Below are positions 4,600-42,315 of a stretch of DNA of 64,000 bases, one piece after another. Position 1 is the first letter of the stretch; each line of letters begins with the position of its first letter. The notes below the pieces were generated by a model, which was not told where the DNA came from, did not search any database, and worked only from the letters and a program-made list of their open reading frames with translations. The DNA comes from Sphingomonas taxi (GTDB taxonomy: Bacteria > Pseudomonadota > Alphaproteobacteria > Sphingomonadales > Sphingomonadaceae), in assembly GCF_000764535.1 (NCBI RefSeq), contig NZ_CP009571.1:1-64000 (forward strand). The letters are read 5' to 3'. Both the position numbers and the translations under genes were made by a program.

Positions 4600-6294
<1,695 letters not shown>

Positions 6295-6462
6295 TTCACG
6301 TCTCCATCGCGGCGGCTGGAGGTGCCAAGATGAGTCCGCGCGAGATCGCGCGCAAGCAGTCTGGCGAGCGCCAGTGCCGCGGCATGGCGTGCCGATTCGG
6401 GAGTGGAGGGTGGCCGCGCAGGGAGGGGACGGTGTTCCATCCACCAGTCCACAGGAGAAAAG

Positions 6463-6487
6463 CATCGTCCAACCCACGCGCGTGGGT
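6463..6487 (-). promoter_or_regulatory. Repeated palindromic motif, copy 1
   Basis: Contains the perfect 16-bp palindrome ACCCACGCGCGTGGGT (6472-6487), preceded by ATCGTCCA. Copies at 8415-8434 and 46092-46110 share the core and the flanking CGATSCT when read leftward. All three lie upstream of leftward element genes; here that gene is the recombinase. Probably an operator or promoter element of the mobile element. Confidence 0.55.
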
Positions 6488-6555
6488 AAGAAAAATGCGC
6501 GACCGGCAGCCGTCTCCGGGTGCTGGTCGCACCGTGTCACATACTCATGCCGGCG

Positions 6556-8268
6556 TTAATCGCGCGGCTCGCCACCAGGCTCAGTTTTTTCACCGGGGGG
6601 GGGCCACGTCGTGCGGTCGAGCAGTACGCGCCCGTCGTCGGTATGTCGGCGACCCAAACGGACCAGATCCTCGTCGCAGTAATCACGGTCGTGGCCGTCC
6701 ACCCGGTACCGGGCGACCAGACGGCCCTCCGGTCCGCGAAACGCATGCGTCTCGGCAATCGTCATTGCGCCGGCAGTGTCGTACCCGGGTGCGCTAACCC
6801 GCACCCGCTCGCCGGGATGCGCGACCTGCGGCTCAAAGGCCGCCAGTTCGTCTGGCTCGAAGCCGGCACGCCCGCGCTTGCCGAAATAGATGATCGGGGG
6901 TGCCGGCTGCGTGTAGCGAGCGCGATAGTCTCGCAGCGCCGACGTCGCCTCGTCGAGCGCGACGCGGGTGGAGGCTTCACGAGCCTGCCGTTCCGCCCAG
7001 CTTGCGACGCCCGCAGCCGTCTCTCCGTGCGGGTGGACGAAACCGCGGTCGGCCGCGCGCTGCTCGGCCAGGCGACCGCTTGCGGCGACATTGCCTGCGA
7101 CCAGCGTATCGTTGAAGCGGTGCAGATCGACATCCAGCCTCGTGCCGCGATCGAGCGACACGGCGCGGCGCGCGGCATCGCGCACCTGCTCGTGCAGTGC
7201 CTGCGGGCGCAGGTGCGGCTCATCGCCAGCGCTCAGATGCGAAAGACCAGCGTCTTCCAGCGCTCGCGTGGCGCGGTCCTGCGCCACGCCGAGGACCAGC
7301 ACACTCCCGGCCGCAGCGGCGCGGTTGCTTGTCACCGCCCAGTCGACGAGGATCATGCGCGCACTGTCGACGATGGTCGTGGCATGCTCTTTTCCCGCGG
7401 CCATCGCATTGAAGTGACGTCCTGCTGCGGCTGCAAGCCGCCCATGTTCCATGCGCCAGCCATGCTGGCTCAACCCATCGCAGATGTACCGGCTCGTCAA
7501 ATTGACCGCCTGCTCCTCCCAGCTGTTCGCGCGGCTCCGCGACGTCTTCATCGTATCCAGCCTGTACAGCATGGCCTCACCGGCGGGCGTCAGATACTCA
7601 TACATCGATGGCTCGAGCACCCGCTCGAAGTTCCTCTGCGGGAAGACCTTCGTCAGCGCCGCCTGGTCTGCCGCCTCGGCGCGGCGCCACCATTCGCGGT
7701 CGGAATGTGGCGATGGGGCAACGATGCAGCCGGCTTTCACGTCGGCATTGCGGGCAGCGAGGGCCCGCTCGGCTGCGGAATTGCTGTCCGGCAAGCCTGC
7801 TACGCTGGCGAGGTCGCGGTCGAGCGGCGTGTCCCCGTCGAACATCGCCCGCAGCAGCGTCGCCGCTTCCACGCTGTGGCGGACGAAGAAGCCACGCGGG
7901 TCGGTGGTCGTGCCGCGCAGTAGATGTGGCACGCCAAGCGAGATGGCAATGCTGTGCGCGAGGTACGCGCTTTCGATGGTGACCGGTAGCTCGGGGTCGT
8001 CGCGCGCTTCCTCGACCTTCATGCACCATGACGCCAAAACCATACGCGCGCCATCCAGCGTGCTGGCGGCGTGAACCGCGCCGTTGTCGATCTCGCACGC
8101 GATCTCTCTCGCGATGCGTCCCATCAGGCGATAGTCGATGCATTCGTCGTCCTGCGCATCCTCGAAGGCGTTGCACAAATAGGCATAGGCGATGCCCGCT
8201 GCCTTCTTCATGAGCTTCGCCGAAGGAGTCGCCTCGGGCTCGTTGGCGTTGTTGTCGATCGTATTCAT
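6556..8268 (-). CDS. Uncharacterised element-backbone protein
   Basis: A 570-residue protein I do not recognise. The ATG at 8268 is supported by GGAG 8 bases upstream. It is soluble-looking, rich in Ala, Arg and Asp, with no signal peptide or membrane segment. The first 350 residues look helical. The C-terminal 120 residues (from PPIIYFGKRG) look like a small beta-rich domain ending in a proline/glycine tail. That tail is encoded through a run of nine C (nine G on the plus strand, 6595-6603), so small slippage would change the last residues. It lies between two copies of the ACCCACGCGCGTGG motif and directly behind the recombinase, which suggests a role in element maintenance or excision control. 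Confidence 0.75.
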   Translation of the reverse strand: MNTIDNNANEPEATPSAKLMKKAAGIAYAYLCNAFEDAQDDECIDYRLMGRIAREIACEIDNGAVHAASTLDGARMVLASWCMKVEEARDDPELPVTIESAYLAHSIAISLGVPHLLRGTTTDPRGFFVRHSVEAATLLRAMFDGDTPLDRDLASVAGLPDSNSAAERALAARNADVKAGCIVAPSPHSDREWWRRAEAADQAALTKVFPQRNFERVLEPSMYEYLTPAGEAMLYRLDTMKTSRSRANSWEEQAVNLTSRYICDGLSQHGWRMEHGRLAAAAGRHFNAMAAGKEHATTIVDSARMILVDWAVTSNRAAAAGSVLVLGVAQDRATRALEDAGLSHLSAGDEPHLRPQALHEQVRDAARRAVSLDRGTRLDVDLHRFNDTLVAGNVAASGRLAEQRAADRGFVHPHGETAAGVASWAERQAREASTRVALDEATSALRDYRARYTQPAPPIIYFGKRGRAGFEPDELAAFEPQVAHPGERVRVSAPGYDTAGAMTIAETHAFRGPEGRLVARYRVDGHDRDYCDEDLVRLGRRHTDDGRVLLDRTTWPPPGEKTEPGGEPRD

Positions 8269-8414
8269 CGTTCGTCTCCGCTCGTCCACGGAGCCTGACC
8301 CGGCACATGCTGACGATTGATGAATCAGCGCGTCCTCCAAGTTGGCGGCGGCGCGCTCATCGTCGTCGAGCCCGGGTCTCGCAACTCCGAGTTCGCCTTC
8401 GAGCAGAAGAGGAT

Positions 8415-8434
8415 CGTGCAACCCACGCGCGTGG
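8415..8434 (-). promoter_or_regulatory. Repeated palindromic motif, copy 2
   Basis: ATCGTGCAACCCACGCGCGT, continuing GG, matches copy 1 with one mismatch over 22 bases. It lies about 150 bp upstream of the leftward gene starting at 8268. Confidence 0.55.
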
Positions 8435-8498
8435 AAACAAAACTGCCAAAAAATACCAAGCGGCGAAGGCGCAAACCAGAAGGTCTGTTTCCAAGGTT

Positions 8499-8649
8499 GG
8501 TGGAGAGCGGGCTGGCCGCTTTCGGGCGCCTATCAAAGTAAGCGGACGCTCGTTCAGGCGGCGGGGCGGGGGGGGGCGAACGACCGGGTATGGTGGGAAG
8601 CGGCACGGCCGCTTTCGGGGATTGGCAAGCTAAACCGGGCACTCGTTCA
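8499..8649 (+). repeat. Two degenerate tandem units of a GGCCGCTTTCGGG repeat
   Basis: Unit 1 (about 8499-8556) and unit 2 (about 8590-8649) both read GGTGG..AGCGG..GGCCGCTTTCGGG and end in CTCGTTCA. Similar CCGCTTTCGGG...AGCGGAC sequences are, from memory, common non-coding repeats in sphingomonad genomes. No coding role is seen. Confidence 0.5.
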
Positions 8650-8817
8650 TCAAGAGCGCCGTCTCAGCTGAGCACCCTAATTTCGGCTGTTTAACGTCCA
8701 GCGGATGGATCTCGATAGCTACGGCTGGCTTAAGACGAACTCGAGAAGTCAAGCCTGTCGATCGTAAGCAATCTAGAGAATGGATCGATCGCCGTTACGA
8801 TTTCGGCAATCGGTTGA

Positions 8818-9597
8818 TCAGGCCTGCGCCGCGTCGTCGTCAGCTTCGCTCCTGCTGGAAACGAACGCTTGGCTGACCCGGTTCTTCTCGTCGCTGAGCG
8901 CCTGCAACTGTTCCTGATGCTCCTGGTCCGGATTGCCGAGCGCGCGCGTCAGCACCACTGCGATCGCCAGCGCGAAATCTAGGCAGCCGATCAGCATTCG
9001 GTGGGTCTCCCAATGATCCGCGCCATAGAGCCCCGCCAGATTGACGCGGAAATAAGGATCCTCCGGCACGTCCTCCAATATTCGCACATGCCCGATCACC
9101 GACTTGATGTTGGGATGCGCGCCGAAATCGATCGCCGCGTCATAGGCGTCGGCCAGCCATTGCCCGCCACCTGGCTGCTCGCGCTCGACCCACTTCGCGA
9201 CATCGTTGACGGCGCTGCCGAACGCCTTGCGACAGGCCTTTTTGGAGTCCACATCCTTGTGCCGGTCGGTCCAGACCGCGCTCAGCTCGGGATCCTTTGC
9301 GATCAGATAGCCATAGCAGGCGGATTCGAGCGCGGTTCGCAGCACCGGAAAGCACGCCGTAACATGGCCGGTCATCGCCACCCGCACCCCGGCAAGGAAC
9401 AGCATGTAGGCGTTCATCGACAGGACCATCGCCATCGGCCCGACCCCGCCTGCGTCGCGCCACAGCGTCTTGCGGAAATAGCCGTCGAACCCGTGCAGCG
9501 TCTGCAGGATCGGACTGTTCTCCTCGCGCAACGCCGAGGTGATGGCGTCGGTTGTGTCGAAATAGTCGTCTATTGATTCGTTGATTTCGACAATCAT
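8818..9597 (-). CDS. Helical protein, last gene of a defence-like operon
   Basis: A 259-residue protein of unknown function. Its start overlaps the stop of the GHKL-nuclease gene (ATGA at 9594-9597), so translation is probably coupled and the products likely work together. It is mostly helical. A central segment (residues about 75-110, with RTALESACYGYLIAKDPE) recalls helical-bundle families such as DUF5677, but I cannot assign it. The C-terminus is charged and probably disordered. It occurs only as part of this four-gene unit here. Possible roles are an effector, a sensor or an immunity-type partner. Confidence 0.8.
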   Translation of the reverse strand: MIVEINESIDDYFDTTDAITSALREENSPILQTLHGFDGYFRKTLWRDAGGVGPMAMVLSMNAYMLFLAGVRVAMTGHVTACFPVLRTALESACYGYLIAKDPELSAVWTDRHKDVDSKKACRKAFGSAVNDVAKWVEREQPGGGQWLADAYDAAIDFGAHPNIKSVIGHVRILEDVPEDPYFRVNLAGLYGADHWETHRMLIGCLDFALAIAVVLTRALGNPDQEHQEQLQALSDEKNRVSQAFVSSRSEADDDAAQA

Positions 9598-11657
9598 GCG
9601 ACGGGATCGCCATCGTCGTCCACGACCAGCACGCCTTCGAGGAACTTCGCGTGCTTTTCTTGGAGGTATTTGATCGATTGACTTTCGTCGGCAGTGTGCT
9701 GGAGATGCTCCTGGAAGAATTGCAGCCGCGCGCGATTTTCCTCGATCAGCTCGCCCCAGGTCTTGATGCCGACGGTCACATTGCCGCCTCGCATGATCAG
9801 CCGCCGTTCGGGGTCGGGGCCGGTGTCGATCTCGTTACGCGCATAGGCATCATAGTCGTTCGAGACGAGCCAGAAGTGCCAGCGTATCCCCTTTACGCTG
9901 TGGAACCTCTCGTCGGCGAGCACCGCGATAGCGTATTTCTTCGCTTGGGTGATCGCGTCCGCGCCGATCTTGACGCTCGGTGCCTTCAGCTCGACGACCA
10001 TATGCTCCATGTCGTTGGCGCGGTGGCGCCGCGTCACGCGCGAGAACATCAGGTCGATGATGCCGCGCTTCTTGCCGATCACCTTGACCGGATCGTCGAT
10101 CGAGATCGCCGGGTCGAGATGCTGCTTATGACGCTCGAGCACCCGCTTGAGGTCCTGGTCGCTGACCCAGAGATTATATTCCTCGCCGAACACCCAGGTG
10201 TTCTCGGCGAGGATACGGTGCAGCTGGGTTCGCTCTTTGATCCGTCCCTTGGTCTCGGGGTCGAACACGATATTCTCGAGGGCGGCGATGAACTTCAGCC
10301 GGTCGGCAACCGTCTTTGCGGCGGTGATGATCGCCGACAGCGTCGTTTCCTGCAGCAAGGCCGCCAGCTCCTTTTGCTGGCGCGCGGGCAAGTCGAGCAC
10401 TTCCTTCAGTATCATCTGCAGCTCTGCCGGGCCGCGCTCGATCGCGCTTCGCAGCATCCGCAGGTGCAGCGCCTTCGACTTGTCCGAGACCAGTCCGATG
10501 TCGGGGGCAATCTCCTGGACATGGACCGCGACGATGTCGAACATCTGGCGCTCGGCCTTCTCGACCGTCGATTGCGGCTCGCCGCGATAGGGATAGACGT
10601 CGGCCGCCTTCCATTCATCGACGACATTCTGCGCGCGTTCGGCGGCCCGCTCGCGGAAATATGCCTTGATGGCGAACCGCGCTTGGTCGACCGCGCCGTT
10701 AAGCGCAGGGTCCATCTCGGCGAGCGCGATCCGCTCTTCGTTGTGGAGCCGCTCGACATAAGGCGATTTGAGGTAGGCCGAGAAATAGAAGCCCGGCACG
10801 TGGAAGCGGGTCTCGACTTGGTCGAGCGGGAAGCCTTCCGCCGAGCATAAATAGAGGGTGCGCTTGGTGTCGCTGCGCCATTCGATGACGTGGAGCTCGA
10901 CCGGATATTCGGTGCCGTCCTCGGCCGTGATCGGGCCGAGAGTGCGTTTGTGCTGGCTGGCGATCGCGGCCTCGGGATCGAGCCGTTCGCCGCCGATCCG
11001 GATCGCCACGCTGCGATAGTTTATCAGATAGAGCGCGAAGATCTCGGCGAGCTCCTGCAGTCCTTCGGCGCTTTCGAACGCCTTGAAGTCGCGGCGGACG
11101 TCGCCGATCGTGATGATCACTCCGGTCTGCCGCTCCGGCGCGGGAACTTCGGGACTGATCGAGACATCGGTCAGATCGGCGTCGAGCAGGCGGATCTCGA
11201 ACGCCCTGTTGCCGTCTTGTGCCTTATAGCAGACCTTCCACGTCACCGCCTGGCCGAGCGCGAAGGCCTTGTAGCGGCCGCGCCCTTCCTGGCCGTGGAC
11301 CATCCGCCCGGCCTTGCGCGTGCGGCGGGTCAGCCGCTTCCACGATCCGCCGAGATTGCCGAATAGCTGCTTGGCTTCCTCGCGGGGGAATCCCTCGCCA
11401 TTGTCGTAGATCACGATCCGCGACATACCGCGGGCCAGATCGTCGTGCGCGAACTCGACATTGATCGTGCTCGCATCGCCGTCGAGCCCGTTCCAGATCA
11501 GCTCGGCGAGCGCCGGTATCGGCTTCGCGCGGGTCTGCCGCGCTACGAAGTCGTCCTGTACGGCGACCGAAATATGTTCGTTATTGTCCAAGACCCCTCC
11601 CGCTTGCTCTTCATGATCTGGATCGGCAGATCGAACAAGGCGGGTGTCCTCGCTCAT
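9594..11657 (-). CDS. GHKL ATPase fused to a DUF4263 (Shedu-like) nuclease domain
   Basis: A 687-residue two-part protein. The N-terminal third is a GHKL/HSP90-type ATPase: the N box ALAELIWNGLDGDA, the G1 box IYDNGEGFP, and FGNLGGSWK..GRMVHGQEGRGRYKAF for the lid and G2 region. The C-terminal part has the features of Shedu-type PD-(D/E)XK nucleases: LHRILAENTWVFGEEY, then GIIDLMFSR and MVVELKAPSVKIG with the E-x-K pair. A linker of about 300 mixed residues joins them. It overlaps both neighbours by four bases. Shedu proteins are known anti-phage nucleases, and ATPase-nuclease fusions are typical of defence systems. Here an ATP-gated nuclease acting with the REase-HEPN and RusA-like partners is inferred, not shown. 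Confidence 0.85.
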   Translation of the reverse strand: MSEDTRLVRSADPDHEEQAGGVLDNNEHISVAVQDDFVARQTRAKPIPALAELIWNGLDGDASTINVEFAHDDLARGMSRIVIYDNGEGFPREEAKQLFGNLGGSWKRLTRRTRKAGRMVHGQEGRGRYKAFALGQAVTWKVCYKAQDGNRAFEIRLLDADLTDVSISPEVPAPERQTGVIITIGDVRRDFKAFESAEGLQELAEIFALYLINYRSVAIRIGGERLDPEAAIASQHKRTLGPITAEDGTEYPVELHVIEWRSDTKRTLYLCSAEGFPLDQVETRFHVPGFYFSAYLKSPYVERLHNEERIALAEMDPALNGAVDQARFAIKAYFRERAAERAQNVVDEWKAADVYPYRGEPQSTVEKAERQMFDIVAVHVQEIAPDIGLVSDKSKALHLRMLRSAIERGPAELQMILKEVLDLPARQQKELAALLQETTLSAIITAAKTVADRLKFIAALENIVFDPETKGRIKERTQLHRILAENTWVFGEEYNLWVSDQDLKRVLERHKQHLDPAISIDDPVKVIGKKRGIIDLMFSRVTRRHRANDMEHMVVELKAPSVKIGADAITQAKKYAIAVLADERFHSVKGIRWHFWLVSNDYDAYARNEIDTGPDPERRLIMRGGNVTVGIKTWGELIEENRARLQFFQEHLQHTADESQSIKYLQEKHAKFLEGVLVVDDDGDPVA

Positions 11658-12307
11658 ACCTCAGACAGCGCTTCTTCGATGACGTTCGCCAAGGTGTCGA
11701 CGTCCTGCTCCGTGGGTTCCATGGTCAGGTCGCCGTGCACTACGGCATTGCGCAGGAGGATAGCGGAACGCAGGCGGCGCTCCGTTTCCGGCTTGATGCG
11801 GCCCAGCATTGCCAGCCCTTGCAGGACGCTCGCTGGAGTCCGAGGGCGTGCCTCCTGCTCGCCCTCGACGTTCAGAAGCGTTGCTTCAAGGAGAGACCAA
11901 GCGAGCAGGAACGCGGCGCGGCTCTGTCCTTGCGTAATGAGAGCACGGACGTCGGCCAGCTGGCGCCGGATCGCGGGCACGGCTGCCGGTTTGATCGTCA
12001 GTGTCTTGAGCGGATCCTCCGCAGCGTAGGCGACGGCGAACGTCCAATCCGGATGGCCGTCGAACAGGGACCTGATCTGATGCAGGCTGAACTCGCTGGC
12101 CCGGCTTCGGCTCTTCCGGACTTCAATCGCCACGTTCTCCCCCGCCTTCCGCGCGATCGCGTCGGGCACGTATGATTGGAGGAAGTCCGGCAAGCCTTGG
12201 AGGTCGGGCTCCATCTCGAACGAGAAACCCTTCGACTCGTACTGCCGGCGCAGCGAGGCAAGCATATTGAGCTCCTCCTGGCTGGCCTGATGCCGAGCTG
12301 TGTTCAT
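11654..12307 (-). CDS. PD-(D/E)XK nuclease-like plus HEPN-like protein
   Basis: A 217-residue protein. The N-terminal half has a restriction-endonuclease-like core (PDAIARKAGENVAIEVRKSR: D, then E-x-R in place of the more common E-x-K). The C-terminal half is a four-helix segment with LLAWSLLEATLL and RNAVVHGD, an R-x4-H motif typical of HEPN RNases. Its start overlaps the stop of the RusA-like gene (12304-12307) and its stop overlaps the GHKL gene. DNA- and RNA-cleaving modules on one chain point to an abortive-infection or restriction role. The E-x-R variant may mean the nuclease half binds and does not cut. Confidence 0.8.
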   Translation of the reverse strand: MNTARHQASQEELNMLASLRRQYESKGFSFEMEPDLQGLPDFLQSYVPDAIARKAGENVAIEVRKSRSRASEFSLHQIRSLFDGHPDWTFAVAYAAEDPLKTLTIKPAAVPAIRRQLADVRALITQGQSRAAFLLAWSLLEATLLNVEGEQEARPRTPASVLQGLAMLGRIKPETERRLRSAILLRNAVVHGDLTMEPTEQDVDTLANVIEEALSEV

Positions 12308-12777
12308 GCTTGTGTTCTCCAGCTCAGATCGTCGTCGATCCGGATGTATACGACAGGTTGCGGCTCATCGGCGGCCGAGATGGCGTCGAGCGCCGCCGTC
12401 AGCGGAGCTGAGGGCGAGCCGAACGACCATGCGGCTTCTGGTTCGAACTTCTGCGAGACCACGCACTCGACCAGCCTGTCGTCCGTATACGCTTGGCCGT
12501 TCAGCGCATCTAGAATGGGCTTCACGATGTTGTCGATGTCGCCGGCCATGGGCGCGGTGGGGAAGTAGAAAATCGTGACCGCCACTGGAGTGTCGTCGAG
12601 CCAGATGAACTCAACGGTTTCCTCGGCCCGTTGTCGGGCGGCTTGGGCGACCATGCCTTTCCACCGTTCCTTCGAAGCGCCGCTCGCCTGAAGGGAGAGC
12701 GGCACAGCCGTCAGGTGGAATTCGAGCGGGAACATGGTCGCACATGTCGTTCCGACGGTTTCCGCGACTTCGGTCAT
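12304..12777 (-). CDS. RusA-like Holliday-junction endonuclease
   Basis: About 157 residues, first gene of the four-gene unit. RusA hallmarks are present: GDIDNIVKPILDALNG (D-x-D-N-x-x-K, as in the RusA metal and catalytic residues) followed by AYTDDRLVE. RusA resolves branched DNA as a homodimer and is usually phage-borne; in this operon it may process DNA for, or sense branched phage DNA with, the ATPase-nuclease. The start is uncertain: ATG at 12777 has only a close GAGG, while a TTG at 12813 has GGAGG 13 bases upstream. Confidence 0.75.
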   Translation of the reverse strand: MTEVAETVGTTCATMFPLEFHLTAVPLSLQASGASKERWKGMVAQAARQRAEETVEFIWLDDTPVAVTIFYFPTAPMAGDIDNIVKPILDALNGQAYTDDRLVECVVSQKFEPEAAWSFGSPSAPLTAALDAISAADEPQPVVYIRIDDDLSWRTQA

Positions 12778-13079
12778 GGCCTCGAATTTGCCAACGGAGC
12801 GTGTCACTTGCAACGCTTTGCGATCGCCTCCGCCGCAGACATGAATGAATGACCGAACCTGAAGGCCGGCAACGGTCTGCGAATGTCTGACTGTGGGTCT
12901 CGTAAGTCGACGGTTCCGGCAATTGCACCGTGAGCCGGACGCTTAGGTTTGGCGATCCGTTCGCTCGAAAGCCGCCATTCGGCAGGCCATCAGCCGGATC
13001 AGTGCCCCGGCAGCGGGTGCTCGGCTTGCAGCAGGCGAACCGTGCGGCGTATGCCACTGCTCCTGGTGGGGGTGAATGG

Positions 13080-14636
13080 ATGGCGAACGGCAGAAGAAGC
13101 CGCGGAAACTCGGTTGTCGGAGAGCGCTGGCCGCTCTTCTGGACAGGCTGTGCGGCAATCAGCGTTGGGGTTGCCCTTCACTTACCGATGCTCGCGATGG
13201 CCCATACGATGGGCAATCACCTGTCGGGTATGCCTATGGACGGATGGATGTACATGGGCATGGCGCTGATCGGCATCGGCGTGCCGGCTGCTATATTTGG
13301 CGCTTTACCCAAGAAACGGCCTGATCACAGGCCAGGCGCTGGCGCCGCATTTGAAGCGCCCGATGATACCCCTCTGACGCGCTCGCATGCGGCCGTTCTG
13401 CTGGTGCTTACCCTCGGCCTGATTATCGACACGATGAAGCCAGCAACGCTCGGCTTTGTGCTTCCGGGTATGCGTGGGGAGTACGGTCTTGCAAAGTCTA
13501 CCGTTGCTCTGCTGCCGTTCGTTGCCCTAACCGGAACCACGGTCGGCTCGTTCCTGTGGGGGTGGCTTGCAGACATTTACGGTCGGCGCGTGTCGATCCT
13601 GTTGTCCACGATCCTGTTCGTCTCGACCTCCATCTGCGGAGCTATGCCTTCCTACAGCTGGAACCTAGTTATGTGCTTTCTGATGGGGTGCTCGGCTGGC
13701 GGCATGCTGCCTGTCGTCTACACGCTGTTGGCTGAGATCATGCCTCCGCGGCACAGAAGTTGGGTCCTTGTGCTGGTTGGCGGTACGGGACTGGTCGGCG
13801 GCTACCTGGCAGCTAGCGGTGCCGCGCATCTGTTCGAGCCTCTGTTCGGCTGGCGTAGCTTGTGGCTGCAGGGCTTTCCCACCGGTTTGTTGCTGCTTGC
13901 GATGGCAAGGTGGATTCCGGAATCCCCGCGCTTTCTGATGGAACGTGGCATGAACGCGGAGCTGGCTGACATGGCTCTCAAGTTCGGCATCGTCAGGCGT
14001 GCTCCACAAGCAGCGCCAGCGGACGCTGGCAGCGCAGCGGCTCACCACCGCGAGTTGACCATCGCCCTGGTGATCACGGCCCTGTCTTGGAGCTTCGTCA
14101 ACTTCGGCTTGCTGCTATGGCTGCCTTCCGATCTCCAGGATCGAGGCTTTAGTGCTGAGATTGCGAGCGGCATCATCGCCAGCTCAGCACTCGTTGCCCT
14201 GCCCACGATCATGATCGCCGCCTTCCTTTACAGCCGGTGGAGCAGCAAGCGCACCCTGATCGGCACTGTGCTTCTCACACTTGCCGGGCTTGCTGGAGCC
14301 CTACTGCCGGCGCCTACGCTGGCTTGGCCACCACTGCTGATCGCTGTGATCGCGCTGCTGGTGGTTGGCGCAAACGGATTGATCGCCGTGCTACTTCCCT
14401 ATGCAGCCGAAAACTACGCGTTACGCGTCCGTGGACGTGCCACCGGGCTGATCGCGGGCAGTAGCAAATTTGGTGGCGTTGCTGTCCAGCTAGGAGCCTT
14501 CGCTGGGCTGATCCCGACGATGGGGGGCGCGGCAGTTGCGCTGATCATACCAATGACGCTGTCAGCGGTACTGATCGGACGCTCAGGTAGAGAGACGCGC
14601 GGCCGCAGCTTACGTGAGCTAGAAGCGGAGGCTTAG
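13080..14636 (+). CDS. MFS transporter with extended N-terminus
   Basis: A 518-residue membrane protein of the major facilitator superfamily. Two extra N-terminal membrane segments with Met/His-rich loops (LAMAHTMGNHLSGMPMDGWM) precede the 12-helix core, which starts near residue 110. The MFS signature WGWLADIYGRR follows helix 2 and a second half begins near HHRELTIAL. The ATG at 13080 has GGGGGTG just upstream; an upstream frame to 12930 lacks support. It stands alone between two defence-like loci, reading rightward. The substrate cannot be told; the sequence resembles sugar/aromatic-acid type symporters. Confidence 0.85.
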   Translation: MANGRRSRGNSVVGERWPLFWTGCAAISVGVALHLPMLAMAHTMGNHLSGMPMDGWMYMGMALIGIGVPAAIFGALPKKRPDHRPGAGAAFEAPDDTPLTRSHAAVLLVLTLGLIIDTMKPATLGFVLPGMRGEYGLAKSTVALLPFVALTGTTVGSFLWGWLADIYGRRVSILLSTILFVSTSICGAMPSYSWNLVMCFLMGCSAGGMLPVVYTLLAEIMPPRHRSWVLVLVGGTGLVGGYLAASGAAHLFEPLFGWRSLWLQGFPTGLLLLAMARWIPESPRFLMERGMNAELADMALKFGIVRRAPQAAPADAGSAAAHHRELTIALVITALSWSFVNFGLLLWLPSDLQDRGFSAEIASGIIASSALVALPTIMIAAFLYSRWSSKRTLIGTVLLTLAGLAGALLPAPTLAWPPLLIAVIALLVVGANGLIAVLLPYAAENYALRVRGRATGLIAGSSKFGGVAVQLGAFAGLIPTMGGAAVALIIPMTLSAVLIGRSGRETRGRSLRELEAEA

Positions 14637-14940: not shown

Positions 14941-16899
14941 TCATAACAGCGTCGGCCATGCGGCGCCTGTAACTCTTTTTGGCGTTCGCCTGACGAAGAG
15001 GCTCGCGACGCGAAGCTGCTGCAATTGCGTAGGGTCGAGGAAGCGGCTCACCTCGTATACCGCCAGTTTGTAGTCAGTTCCCGCAACGCGCCGGCCATCT
15101 CCAATAGCCCTCAACATGCCGAACTTCGGTCCTTCCTCGTAGGCCTCCACCACCAAGTGTCGATCCGGCCCGAGGATGTCGCCGAGGAGATAAAGGCGGT
15201 TCGGCACGAGCAGATCAATTCGCCCTGAAGACGTTAGCGCCTCGCAAAGGCTGACGAGCTCATCGAAGCTGGGTGATCGGAACTGGCCAGGGCCGGGAGC
15301 GATGCGCAGCTGCTGGGCCAGAGGCAGCAGCACGATGTCGTGCGACAGGCTCGGGACGAGCCATTCCAGATCGCAGGCGAGATCGACGATGCCGATTCCC
15401 ATCTCCGCCTCCTCAATCCGAACGCTGTCGGCTCGCCAGCTGCTGTGCACGAGCCTTCTCACCCCATCGGTCTTGCTGCGCCGAGCTGCAGCAAGCAGGA
15501 TTTCGCCTTCCACAATGACGTTCGGCTCGGTCGGGGGATCGGAAAGCGGGACGAGCTTCGTGGCGGAGAGATCGCTCGTCAATATCTCCTTCGCGCGCTT
15601 CAGTGACGCGACGCCGGACGCCGTGTAGCCCCAGCTCACAAAGAGGTCGCGCATCACGTCAGTCCAGGCAAGCCCGAAGCACCGGTCGTCGGCGTCGATC
15701 GCCGCAAGAACGAAGAAGTACTCCATGATCGATCGATGAGCGAACTTCAGCAGCCCGTCGTTGTCGCGATTGAGCAGGGATCTGGTCGACAGATGGTCCC
15801 AGTCGGCCTGATGCCCGCTGATGCTCTTGGCTATCTCGTCCACCTCGTTTCGGCTCAGTCGGTCGCCCCGTCCGGACGACGCCCTCGCGTGGATCTCGAC
15901 CGCGATCCGTTTGGACACCGCGATCAGCAGCGCGCCGTCGATCCAGCGCTCCTCGCGCGCCACCCACTTCTGGACCATGTACTCATAGAGGTCGAACACC
16001 TCCTGAGCCACGGCGCCTTCACGGATCAGATCCGGAACAAGCTCCAGCAGCATTGGCCGCCCGCTAAGCTCCGGCACCCGGGCGACGAGGCGCTCCGCGG
16101 CGTGACGGCGCGGTAGGCTCTTCGGGTTCCATAACGGAAATTGCTTGCTGATGTAGGTCGATATTTGCGCCGTGGTGAACGGCATCAGGTAGAGGTGCCA
16201 CAGCGTGTAAGTGGAGCCGGCACCGGCCATCCTGGGCCCGATCACCGAAACGCCCGTATCCTTCGGGATCGCGCTGGCATCCCTAAAGAATTGCGACCGG
16301 CAGGTGATGATGACGGCGACGTAGTCGGCCGCGAGGCTAAGTAGCTCCGACAAGCGCGCTTCCACGCCGTTCTGCGCCGCCGGATCCTCATCGAGCGCGT
16401 CAACGATGAGCAGCGTGTCGCGCTTGTTCGCGATCGCCCCAATCTTCGCGTCGGCACCTGGTCGGGACAGGCTGACCAGAGCCACCGGGCCCGTCTTCCG
16501 TTTACCGGCGTGCCGGAAGTAATTGAGGCAGAGCGTCGTCTTGCCCATGCCGGAGTCCGCGAGCACCAGAAAATGCCGTCGACGCAGAGCGTGATCGACG
16601 AAGCGGTCAAGAGACGAGAACACCGGCTCGCGAATGTCGGCGACGTGCCGGTTATCGGTCTCGTGCGACGGATCAGCCTGTCCGCAATCGGGTTGGACAT
16701 ACGTCCTAAAGGCGGCCGCAATCTCCGCATCGGTGTAGCTTGGCGTGAAAACGGACTGGTTCCGCTGGCTTTTCAGCTTCACCGCGGCCGTGATGTGGCG
16801 CCTGTCCGAAAGCCAGTATCCCATCCGGACCAGGAGAAAGGCGGCGCCCCCTACGGCCGCAATCCACTTGCAAATCTGGACAAGGGCTTCGATCGACAT
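14941..16899 (-). CDS. Membrane-anchored NACHT-type STAND NTPase
   Basis: A 652-residue protein. One N-terminal membrane helix (ICKWIAAVGGAAFLLVRMGYWL, about residues 10-31 by position) is followed by a linker and a NACHT-like NTPase: Walker A LADSGMGKTTL (about residue 115), Walker B TLLIVDALDED, and a sensor motif AVIITCRSQFF. A winged-helix/helical region and an uncharacterised C-terminal sensor-like region follow, without clear repeats. STAND NTPases of this layout are known in bacteria as phage sensors (bNACHT, Avs). The ATG at 16899 has GAGGG upstream; the frame extends to a TTG at 16920. The gene is monocistronic and faces the four-gene defence-like unit across an MFS gene. The effector is not obvious; the membrane anchor may act as one. 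Confidence 0.8.
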   Translation of the reverse strand: MSIEALVQICKWIAAVGGAAFLLVRMGYWLSDRRHITAAVKLKSQRNQSVFTPSYTDAEIAAAFRTYVQPDCGQADPSHETDNRHVADIREPVFSSLDRFVDHALRRRHFLVLADSGMGKTTLCLNYFRHAGKRKTGPVALVSLSRPGADAKIGAIANKRDTLLIVDALDEDPAAQNGVEARLSELLSLAADYVAVIITCRSQFFRDASAIPKDTGVSVIGPRMAGAGSTYTLWHLYLMPFTTAQISTYISKQFPLWNPKSLPRRHAAERLVARVPELSGRPMLLELVPDLIREGAVAQEVFDLYEYMVQKWVAREERWIDGALLIAVSKRIAVEIHARASSGRGDRLSRNEVDEIAKSISGHQADWDHLSTRSLLNRDNDGLLKFAHRSIMEYFFVLAAIDADDRCFGLAWTDVMRDLFVSWGYTASGVASLKRAKEILTSDLSATKLVPLSDPPTEPNVIVEGEILLAAARRSKTDGVRRLVHSSWRADSVRIEEAEMGIGIVDLACDLEWLVPSLSHDIVLLPLAQQLRIAPGPGQFRSPSFDELVSLCEALTSSGRIDLLVPNRLYLLGDILGPDRHLVVEAYEEGPKFGMLRAIGDGRRVAGTDYKLAVYEVSRFLDPTQLQQLRVASLFVRRTPKRVTGAAWPTLL

Positions 16900-17232
16900 T
16901 CCGAGCCCTCGCCGGTGCAAATTAGACTCTTGTAGTCACAACGGTGTGGTCGACTCAATTCCCCGAAGCGGTATCAAGCTGCGGGAACGATGCTCGTCTG
17001 GCCCGCATAAGCAGCCGTCCGCTGTCCCATCATTCCTAGCGATGACCCGGCGTTGCGGAAGAGCGGTCGATCGAGATTATAAACGAATGGCGGAAGTCGG
17101 GTGAGCAGAGATTCCTCGCGAATGACCGCCTATGGGTCCGGCCCGCCATTTATTCGCGGTGCGCCAACCCAAATCGCGAATCGGACGGATCTTTGGTGAC
17201 TGAATTCAGCGTATCAACCGCGCTTGCGACTG
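16900..17232. other. Divergent intergenic region
   Basis: Separates the leftward NACHT gene from the rightward metabolic operon. Apart from the CGTANTTYCCGA site at its right edge and a 7-bp inverted repeat ATTCGCG/CGCGAAT (about 17152-17182), I see nothing. It marks the boundary between defence and metabolic cargo. Confidence 0.5.
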
Positions 17233-41888: not shown

Positions 41889-42315
41889 GGCTCCGTCAAA
41901 CCAAATGCACCGGCTGTGCCGATAATCTGAGTGGGGTAGGGCAGGGGCATGCCCCGCGCCCGCAAGCCAGCTTCGCCGTTCCGGTATTTCAACCCATCGC
42001 CGGAGGTGATCCGGCTAGTGGTGCTCATGTACGTCCGCTTCCCGCTGTCGCTGCGGAACGTTGAGGATCTGCTGTTCGAACGCGGGATCGACATTTGCCA
42101 CGAAACGGTGCGGCTGTGGTGGAACAGGTTCGGTCCGCTGTTCGCCGGCGACATCCGCCGTGCTCGGGTGAGCCGGATGCGTGGCTTTCGTCACTGGCGG
42201 TGGCACCTCGACGAAATGTATGTGAAGCTGAATGGCGAGATGGTCTACCTGTGGCGAGCCGTGGATCACGAAGGTGAGGTGCTGGAGAGCTACGTCACCA
42301 GCACACGCGACAAAG
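41889..42315 (+). mobile_element. Truncated IS6-family insertion sequence
   Basis: Left terminal repeat-like GGCTCCGTCAAACC at 41889, then a transposase frame from ATG 41949: FRYFNPSPEVIRLVVLMYVR, LFERGIDICHETVRLWWNRF and HWRWHLDEMYVKLNGEMVYLWRAVDHEG (first DDE Asp in HLDEMYV). The match stops after VLESYVTSTRDK near 42315, where another gene begins in antisense. About half the transposase and the right terminal repeat are missing. The copy must be inactive. Confidence 0.8.

Follow-up and report, generated by a model that had tools for sequence, protein, structure and literature searches.

Close to the start of contig NZ_CP009571.1 of Sphingomonas taxi (assembly GCF_000764535.1), four minus-strand open reading frames follow one another in succession. 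Coordinates are positions in the window, that is, the whole stretch of 64,000 nucleotides that was analysed. The first frame, g1 (12777-12304, ATG at 12777, 157 residues), encodes a RusA-family Holliday-junction resolvase. It is followed by g2 (12307-11654, 217 residues), which combines a restriction endonuclease domain of the archaeal Holliday-junction-resolvase-like (AHJR-like) kind with a C-terminal HEPN domain, by g3 (frame 11657-9594), a paraMORC3-like protein with a GHKL ATPase, an S5 domain, a helical part and a C-terminal PD-(D/E)XK nuclease, and by g4 (9597-8818, 259 residues), an orphan helical protein with a possible HEPN-like fold. The four genes are real. An earlier note, made from the sequence alone, took them for one undescribed four-gene defence system. 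We favour a different view: the locus is probably a composite of three separately circulating modules, the g1-g2 pair, g3 and g4, lined up in the same orientation on a serine-recombinase island. For each putative module a role in defence is plausible.

The separability of the modules is seen in the neighbourhoods of their relatives, where linkage was assessed by profile searches of six-frame translations of the flanks (1.5 to 8 kb for the g3 loci). For g3, 49 records gave 40 distinct loci, drawn from 26 GTDB contigs (two of them from one assembly, maybe halves of one gene), 4 of 47 plasmid records, and 6 order, 2 viral, 1 class and 2 genus sequences. For g4, 42 records gave 39 distinct loci, from 33 viral contigs, the 7 of 22 plasmid records that were fetched, and genome G731. 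None of the 40 g3 loci carries g1, g2 or g4 in its flanks, and none of the 39 g4 loci carries g1, g2 or g3. When the 14 loci of the g1-g2 pair described below are added, no locus with all four genes was found outside the genome of origin.

Within the genus, 16 of 295 genomes, including the genome of origin, show a nucleotide match to the operon. Diverged copies can escape a DNA search, so the 15 other matching genomes were profile-searched whole. Relatives of g2 occur only in G865 and G937, of g4 only in G731, and of g3 only in G800, G840, G1008, G939 and G928; no genome among the 15 has two modules. The g3 relative in G1008 (C213:17085-19086) has stops inside and is a broken copy. Six further genomes of the genus match over 45-55 bases inside g3 only and give no profile match. 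Genome G982 shares 244 bp with the window at 98% identity by blastn (12656..12899, minus strand), comprising the leader and the first 113 bases of g1, after which, by our reading of the sequence, a transposase-like gene follows; profiles found no g2, g3 or g4 there. This remnant lies at 9439-9760 of locus L113, and part of the transposase-like gene is 84% like positions 41889-42313 of the window. The genome of origin is the only one in the order and class samples with both g2 and g3. The four-gene reading is not supported: the neighbours change from one genome examined to the next, the plasmids, viral contigs and genomes searched gave no further locus with all four genes, and on this evidence the proposed system was rejected. 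Contigs of equal size were also compared across the protein lists, a weak and uninformative test in which sizes 5205 and 1103 are common to g2 and g4 and none is shared with g3.

What speaks for a single unit is the tight co-linear packing. The letters ATGA stand at all three junctions (12307-12304 for g1/g2, 11657-11654 for g2/g3 and 9597-9594 for g3/g4), as the earlier note had pointed out, and the 4-base overlaps of g1/g2 and g3/g4 lie at starts that the relatives use too. The middle junction, in contrast, is probably not an overlap. Conservation in the g3 family sets in at about residue 23 of the 687-residue frame that opens with the ATG at 11657. Among the 120 listed relatives, 92 allowed the start motif to be placed, and 86 of those begin 3-4 residues before it; a relative 96% identical to g3 (P0001) starts at the residue that matches Leu23 of the window. 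The codon of Leu23 is the TTG at 11591, directly after GGAGGGGTC, with GGAGGGG before it. From the start positions in the relatives and in P0001 we therefore take g3 to run, probably, from this TTG (9594..11591, minus strand, 665 residues), 62 bases after g2, with the ATGA at 11657 unused and no g2/g3 overlap. At the other end, the g3/g4 overlap is absent from P0001, whose C-terminus instead runs on for about 40 more residues. We consider it very unlikely that g1-g2, g3 and g4 cooperate in this lineage as sensor, gate and effector of a single defence system: the overlap is missing in so close a relative, the 40 g3, 39 g4 and 14 pair loci and the 15 genus genomes yielded no second fourfold locus, and in the equal-size comparison, weak as it is, no contig size of the g3 list recurs for g2 or g4. 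The locus carries a warning that gene overlap by itself does not define a defence system.

The placement of the locus on a mobile element, which the earlier note had suspected, is supported. A large serine recombinase (4633..6540, minus strand; PF00239, PF07508 and PF13408), the probable island integrase, overlaps with its 3' end a tRNA-Met (4600..4676, plus strand, found by ARAGORN), the probable attachment site, and for this reason we place the four genes on a serine-recombinase island at tRNA-Met. Read by eye, an rRNA operon seems to precede this stretch. For the other end of the island, a search of the window for a repeat of the tRNA 3' end returned the tRNA copy itself only, and a direct-repeat search gave no obvious att pair.

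The one association that holds across genomes is that of g1 with g2. Each of the 14 other loci examined has a RusA gene directly upstream of g2; these loci lie on six plasmids, in G503, G865 and G937, and in five further genomes of the class. The plasmids belong to Rhizobium, Agrobacterium, Azospirillum and Methylobacterium, and searches with g1 and with g2 give the same six records. All 14 loci are distinct at 99.5%, yet they are not all independent, three Rhizobium plasmids being close kin. In 7 of the 8 loci measured the coding ends of the two genes overlap by 1 or 4 bases; in the eighth, either a 4-base overlap is possible or the start lies 5 bases downstream. Few genomes have the pair, and their distribution is patchy (2 of 396 order genomes and 6 of 385 class genomes, the genome of origin counted in each); no relatives of g2 were found in viral contigs or phage records. 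In G503, the pair adjoins a gene that reads as tyrosine-integrase-like, beside a tRNA-Leu.

Both proteins of the pair have domains of junction-resolvase families. For g1, RusA (PF05866) is matched at E 4.4e-9 with 37.4 bits against a cut-off of 22.8 (piece from 12768), and the residues D-x-D-N-xx-K and D-D are kept in 5 of 5 aligned sequences, the window included; the aspartates are the catalytic residues of RusA. The RusA-like resolvase of the earlier note is hereby confirmed. For g2, REase_AHJR-like (PF18743) is matched over about residues 5-124 at E 1.3e-38, with 131.8 bits against a cut-off of 26.1, and there is a profile match to Hjc structures. The HepT-like HEPN profile is weak for the window protein (Pfam E 0.024; NF047751 E 0.0029), and Pfam gives PF01934 for several of its relatives. 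The pairing of a PD-(D/E)XK domain with HEPN noted earlier is therefore borne out, without the E-x-K that was ascribed to it. D49 is kept in 32 of 32 aligned sequences and E62 in 31 of 32, but at position 64 lysine (15 sequences) is about as frequent as arginine (14), with leucine in the other 3, and the window itself has E62-V-R64 and thus departs from the D...E-x-K of an active nuclease. By contrast, R186, N187, H191, G192 and D193 of the HEPN part are invariant (32/32), in agreement with the R-x4-6-H motif of HEPN RNases (R186-N-x3-H191). Because these residues are invariant while the nuclease lysine varies, the HEPN part is most likely the catalytic part of g2, whereas the restriction-endonuclease part may serve recognition.

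A fusion of this kind is known. A 2013 survey lists, in a table, HEPN-M (DUF86/HepT) as occasionally fused to an archaeal Holliday-junction-resolvase-like restriction endonuclease (PMC3710099), and g2 corresponds to this fusion. The constant RusA partner is what the present loci add; a word count finds no RusA in that survey. In the literature searched, no paper has both RusA and HEPN as whole words, and papers with RusA, anti-phage and Holliday junction resolvase appear to be studies of prophages, jumbo phages and adsorption. In the same literature, paraMORC3 is mentioned in two papers and DUF5677 in one, which concerns the severity of salmonellosis. The RusA and AHJR/HEPN pair thus appears to be a new element, a variant among HEPN-based conflict modules, with a putative function. 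It replaces the attractive yet unsupported four-gene unit with a better one that is open to cloning.

How might such a pair work? We infer that the AHJR-like domain of g2 would recognise branched DNA, for instance intermediates of recombination or replication, arising from infection or from the establishment of a plasmid. This branched DNA would license the HEPN domain, taken as an RNase because its R-N-x3-H motif is invariant, to cleave RNA and halt growth. RusA, the first product and coupled to g2 in translation, would work on these branched structures too, either cutting them as a second effector or clearing the trigger away as a gatekeeper. If the pair functions along these lines, an RNA-cutting toxin would have a junction resolvase for a partner, and recombination structure would be linked to abortive infection.

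The surroundings of the pair bear on this picture. We scanned 99 neighbouring proteins of 130-800 residues within 6.5 kb of the pair in 13 loci, G937 being left out for its short flank. Among the matches listed, PADLOC gives AbiEi, AbiEii, GajA and GajB of Gabija, PD-Lambda-2 and type IV/Mrr restriction endonucleases. In the locus L035, genes for an error-prone polymerase, ImuA and LigD lie near the pair, and among the matches listed 2 of the 99 proteins match DNA-ligase models. The latter genes, the plasmid location, the origin of both domains in junction-resolvase families and the match of g2 to Hjc structures would suit a role in DNA repair or recombination on plasmids and islands, in which RusA and the Hjc-like protein process junctions and HEPN is a nucleic-acid-binding or regulatory tail. 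We find this doubtful: all 32 sequences keep R-N-x3-H-G-D while the nuclease lysine varies, some loci have AbiE, Gabija, PD-Lambda-2 or Mrr genes near the pair, and a distribution over 1 of 395 other order genomes and 5 of 384 other class genomes is rare and patchy.

Somewhat less doubtful, although still on the unlikely side, is a toxin-antitoxin pair for the maintenance of the island or plasmid, in which the HEPN toxin g2 is restrained by RusA. The antitoxin-first gene order, the coupling and the presence on plasmids agree with it, and HepT is a known HEPN toxin to which g2 has the weak match given above. In the MntA-HepT type VII toxin-antitoxin system a HEPN RNase is likewise the second gene of an overlapping pair; here, however, the partner is RusA and no nucleotidyltransferase, and the HEPN part bears an N-terminal endonuclease-like domain. 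RusA is moreover an enzyme family, its aspartates are kept, and it is not known as an antitoxin.

A bolder proposal, to which we assign a low probability, is that g1-g2 founds a class of immunity that senses branched DNA, with an Hjc-like detector, a HEPN RNase, RusA as threshold setter and a GHKL-nuclease as second arm. Phage replication would yield Holliday junctions or stalled forks through which the Hjc-like domain switches on the HEPN RNase; the co-translated RusA would set the threshold by removing junctions, so that a resolvase would serve as guard or antitoxin; and the recurring GHKL-nuclease neighbour would supply the DNA-cutting arm.

That neighbour leads to the observations that weigh against three modules without ties. 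A distant GHKL-nuclease adjoins the pair in 3 of the 13 loci with wide flanks, all of them Rhizobiaceae plasmids and all with the gene on the opposite strand. The three proteins are 86-96% identical to one another and about 20% identical to g3 across 563-605 residues, into the nuclease part; they lie outside the 40 g3 loci. BLAST with g3 missed them and the Pfam scan found them. In that scan, the domain HATPase_c_3 is present in at least 3 of the 99 neighbours, among the matches listed. As judged from these sequences, a GHKL-nuclease came to stand beside the pair at least twice and in very different forms, and on account of the Rhizobiaceae lineage the pair and the GHKL nuclease may not be wholly independent, which counts against full INDEPENDENCE. 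The same lineage is a point in favour of one cooperative system. Here, the related plasmid L038 tells against the latter, as it has the pair and the flanking restriction-endonuclease gene without the GHKL gene. The adjacency may reflect a loose partnership, or chance where defence genes are dense. Furthermore, metagenome contigs, outside the reach of the linkage searches, hold the closest relatives of g2, g3 and g4, and fourfold loci are possible there, again to the advantage of the four-gene reading. Other points concern the defence reading itself: the neighbour scan was run without a matched control and covers the first 25 of 100 PADLOC families and the first 25 of 111 Pfam families; some loci have ordinary surroundings (L037, and cobalamin genes among the matches listed); since the nuclease lysine is not conserved, the endonuclease part of g2 may just bind DNA, or neither bind nor cut it; and a promoter scan of 8300-13200, upstream of the operon included, found none where shuffles expect about one. 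As a separate observation, a restriction-endonuclease gene stands beside the distant GHKL-nuclease on the Rhizobium plasmids L036 and L039; in L036 it is followed by a gene for a UvrD helicase, and these genes may form a small defence cluster.

We now return to the second of the three modules. In g3, HATPase_c_3 (PF13589) is matched at E 1.4e-11, together with a weak HSDR_N_2 nuclease match. The residues of a GHKL ATPase (E52, N56, D59, D85, G87, G89, G125, G127 and K130) and those of a C-terminal E-D-ExK nuclease (E485, D535 and E556-x-K558) are all present in 22 of 22 sequences. The structure model has a mean predicted local distance difference test score (pLDDT) of 68.4 and is best in the ATPase half, with about 80-94 over most of residues 130-340. 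Among the matches listed, Foldseek aligns it to ATPase chains of TRAP1/Hsp90, TopoVI-B, MORC2 and topoisomerases (E 8e-11 to 2e-6; target template-modelling score 0.18-0.45), and these matches indicate an S5 domain after the GHKL part. The GHKL ATPase with a C-terminal nuclease seen by the earlier note is thus upheld, and its assignment to DUF4263/Shedu is not: at E <= 1, the Shedu/DUF4263 Pfam models match neither g3 nor nine relatives, and membership in Shedu by profile was dismissed. A link at the level of the fold is nevertheless possible, since the nuclease part of the structure model is weak.

The architecture itself has been described before. Iyer, Abhiman and Aravind (2008, PMC2292703) characterise paraMORC3, which is partly stand-alone, by a GHKL and an S5 domain together with an E-D-ExK domain at the C-terminus. 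VcSduA of V. cholerae combines a GHKL with a nuclease domain and confers protection from phages, for which both the ATPase and the nuclease residues are required; VcSduA, or GHKL-Shedu, was named type I-D Shedu (PMC12137116). That an often stand-alone defence protein of this architecture is already described also counts, at least in part, against the four-gene system of the earlier note, which had named a match to a known system and unconserved neighbours as grounds for giving it up. The order of GHKL ATPase, S5 and C-terminal E-D-ExK nuclease is the same in g3, whose family is likewise widespread, sporadic and usually stand-alone, without constant neighbours. Differences are that g3 matches no DUF4263/Shedu model and that it sits in a run of four genes. 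With VcSduA the comparison is by description only, and sets the reported E27 and K557 (PMC12137116) beside E52 and K558 of g3. By analogy we file g3 as paraMORC3-like and working like VcSduA, so that the second module would be a DNA nuclease gated by a GHKL ATPase that restricts invading DNA. Some neighbours are shared among the g3 relatives without being constant: a TauD-like protein and its partner (7-8 of 34 loci), nSTAND proteins and a polymerase set. A GHKL-nuclease of the g3 type is also encoded in two Pasteurella phage records, OR544134.1 and OR544131.1 (H65, H66), with 34% identity across 94% of g3.

We also compared all four proteins with system databases. At E <= 1, the sole match of g1-g4 in PADLOC-DB is RTasHEPN for g2 (E 0.033), hence no convincing match to a named system. 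NCBIfam matches are all far under their cut-offs, the best being a BbrUII/HgiDII restriction-enzyme model for g3 (E 4e-11). In PHROGs, g1 falls among RusA-like resolvases, and g3 (E 7e-68) and g4 (E 2e-32) fall in families of unknown function.

The third module, g4, matches no Pfam family above its cut-off and no solved structure by sequence at E <= 1. Its model (pLDDT 91.7) aligns best to HEPN domains, which in a helical model is a lead only; it suggests a HEPN-like fold, so that the helical protein of the earlier note may be more than merely helical. The RNase motif R-x4-6-H is not found: H161, the sole histidine examined, is kept in 34 of 34 sequences, and position 156, five residues before it, is I in all 34. 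A HEPN of the PaREP1 type (structure 2q00) is noted in the 2013 survey with the words 'Lacks R but H is conserved' (PMC3710099); g4 differs in belonging to another family with a helical N-terminal extension. We picture g4 as an accessory gene of HEPN fold, perhaps a non-catalytic or rewired HEPN. Its relatives are found in 22 plasmid records, 33 IMG/VR viral contigs and genome G731, and none in annotated phage records; no common neighbour stood out on the IMG/VR contigs. An ATP-binding protein beside a g4 relative in L046 was considered as a GHKL protein and discarded, Pfam finding no GHKL domain. The metagenome protein P0143 has 140 residues 93% identical to g4, joined to an unrelated C-terminal part that by eye resembles a serine recombinase tail and has no significant similarity to the recombinase of the window.

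Further genes flank the run. Between the recombinase and g4, a gene at 6556-8310 (minus strand) has no Pfam family at E <= 1 and a weak PADLOC match to PprRE (E 6e-4). It is flanked by a 33-bp direct repeat, 88% identical (6453-6485 and 8402-8434), whose copies are possible sites of shared control or recombination. On the other side, the NACHT NTPase that the earlier note placed next to the operon is found as a weakly matched STAND/NACHT-like NTPase at 14941-16920 (minus strand; antiphage protein EruA, NF058535, E 1e-6), and a defence-island setting is plausible, if not for a four-gene unit; the NTPase is no direct neighbour, as an MFS transporter gene lies between (12930-14636, plus strand). 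The codon usage index of this transporter gene is 0.415, compared with 0.65-0.72 in five nearby reference genes, and such atypical usage points to a separate foreign origin.

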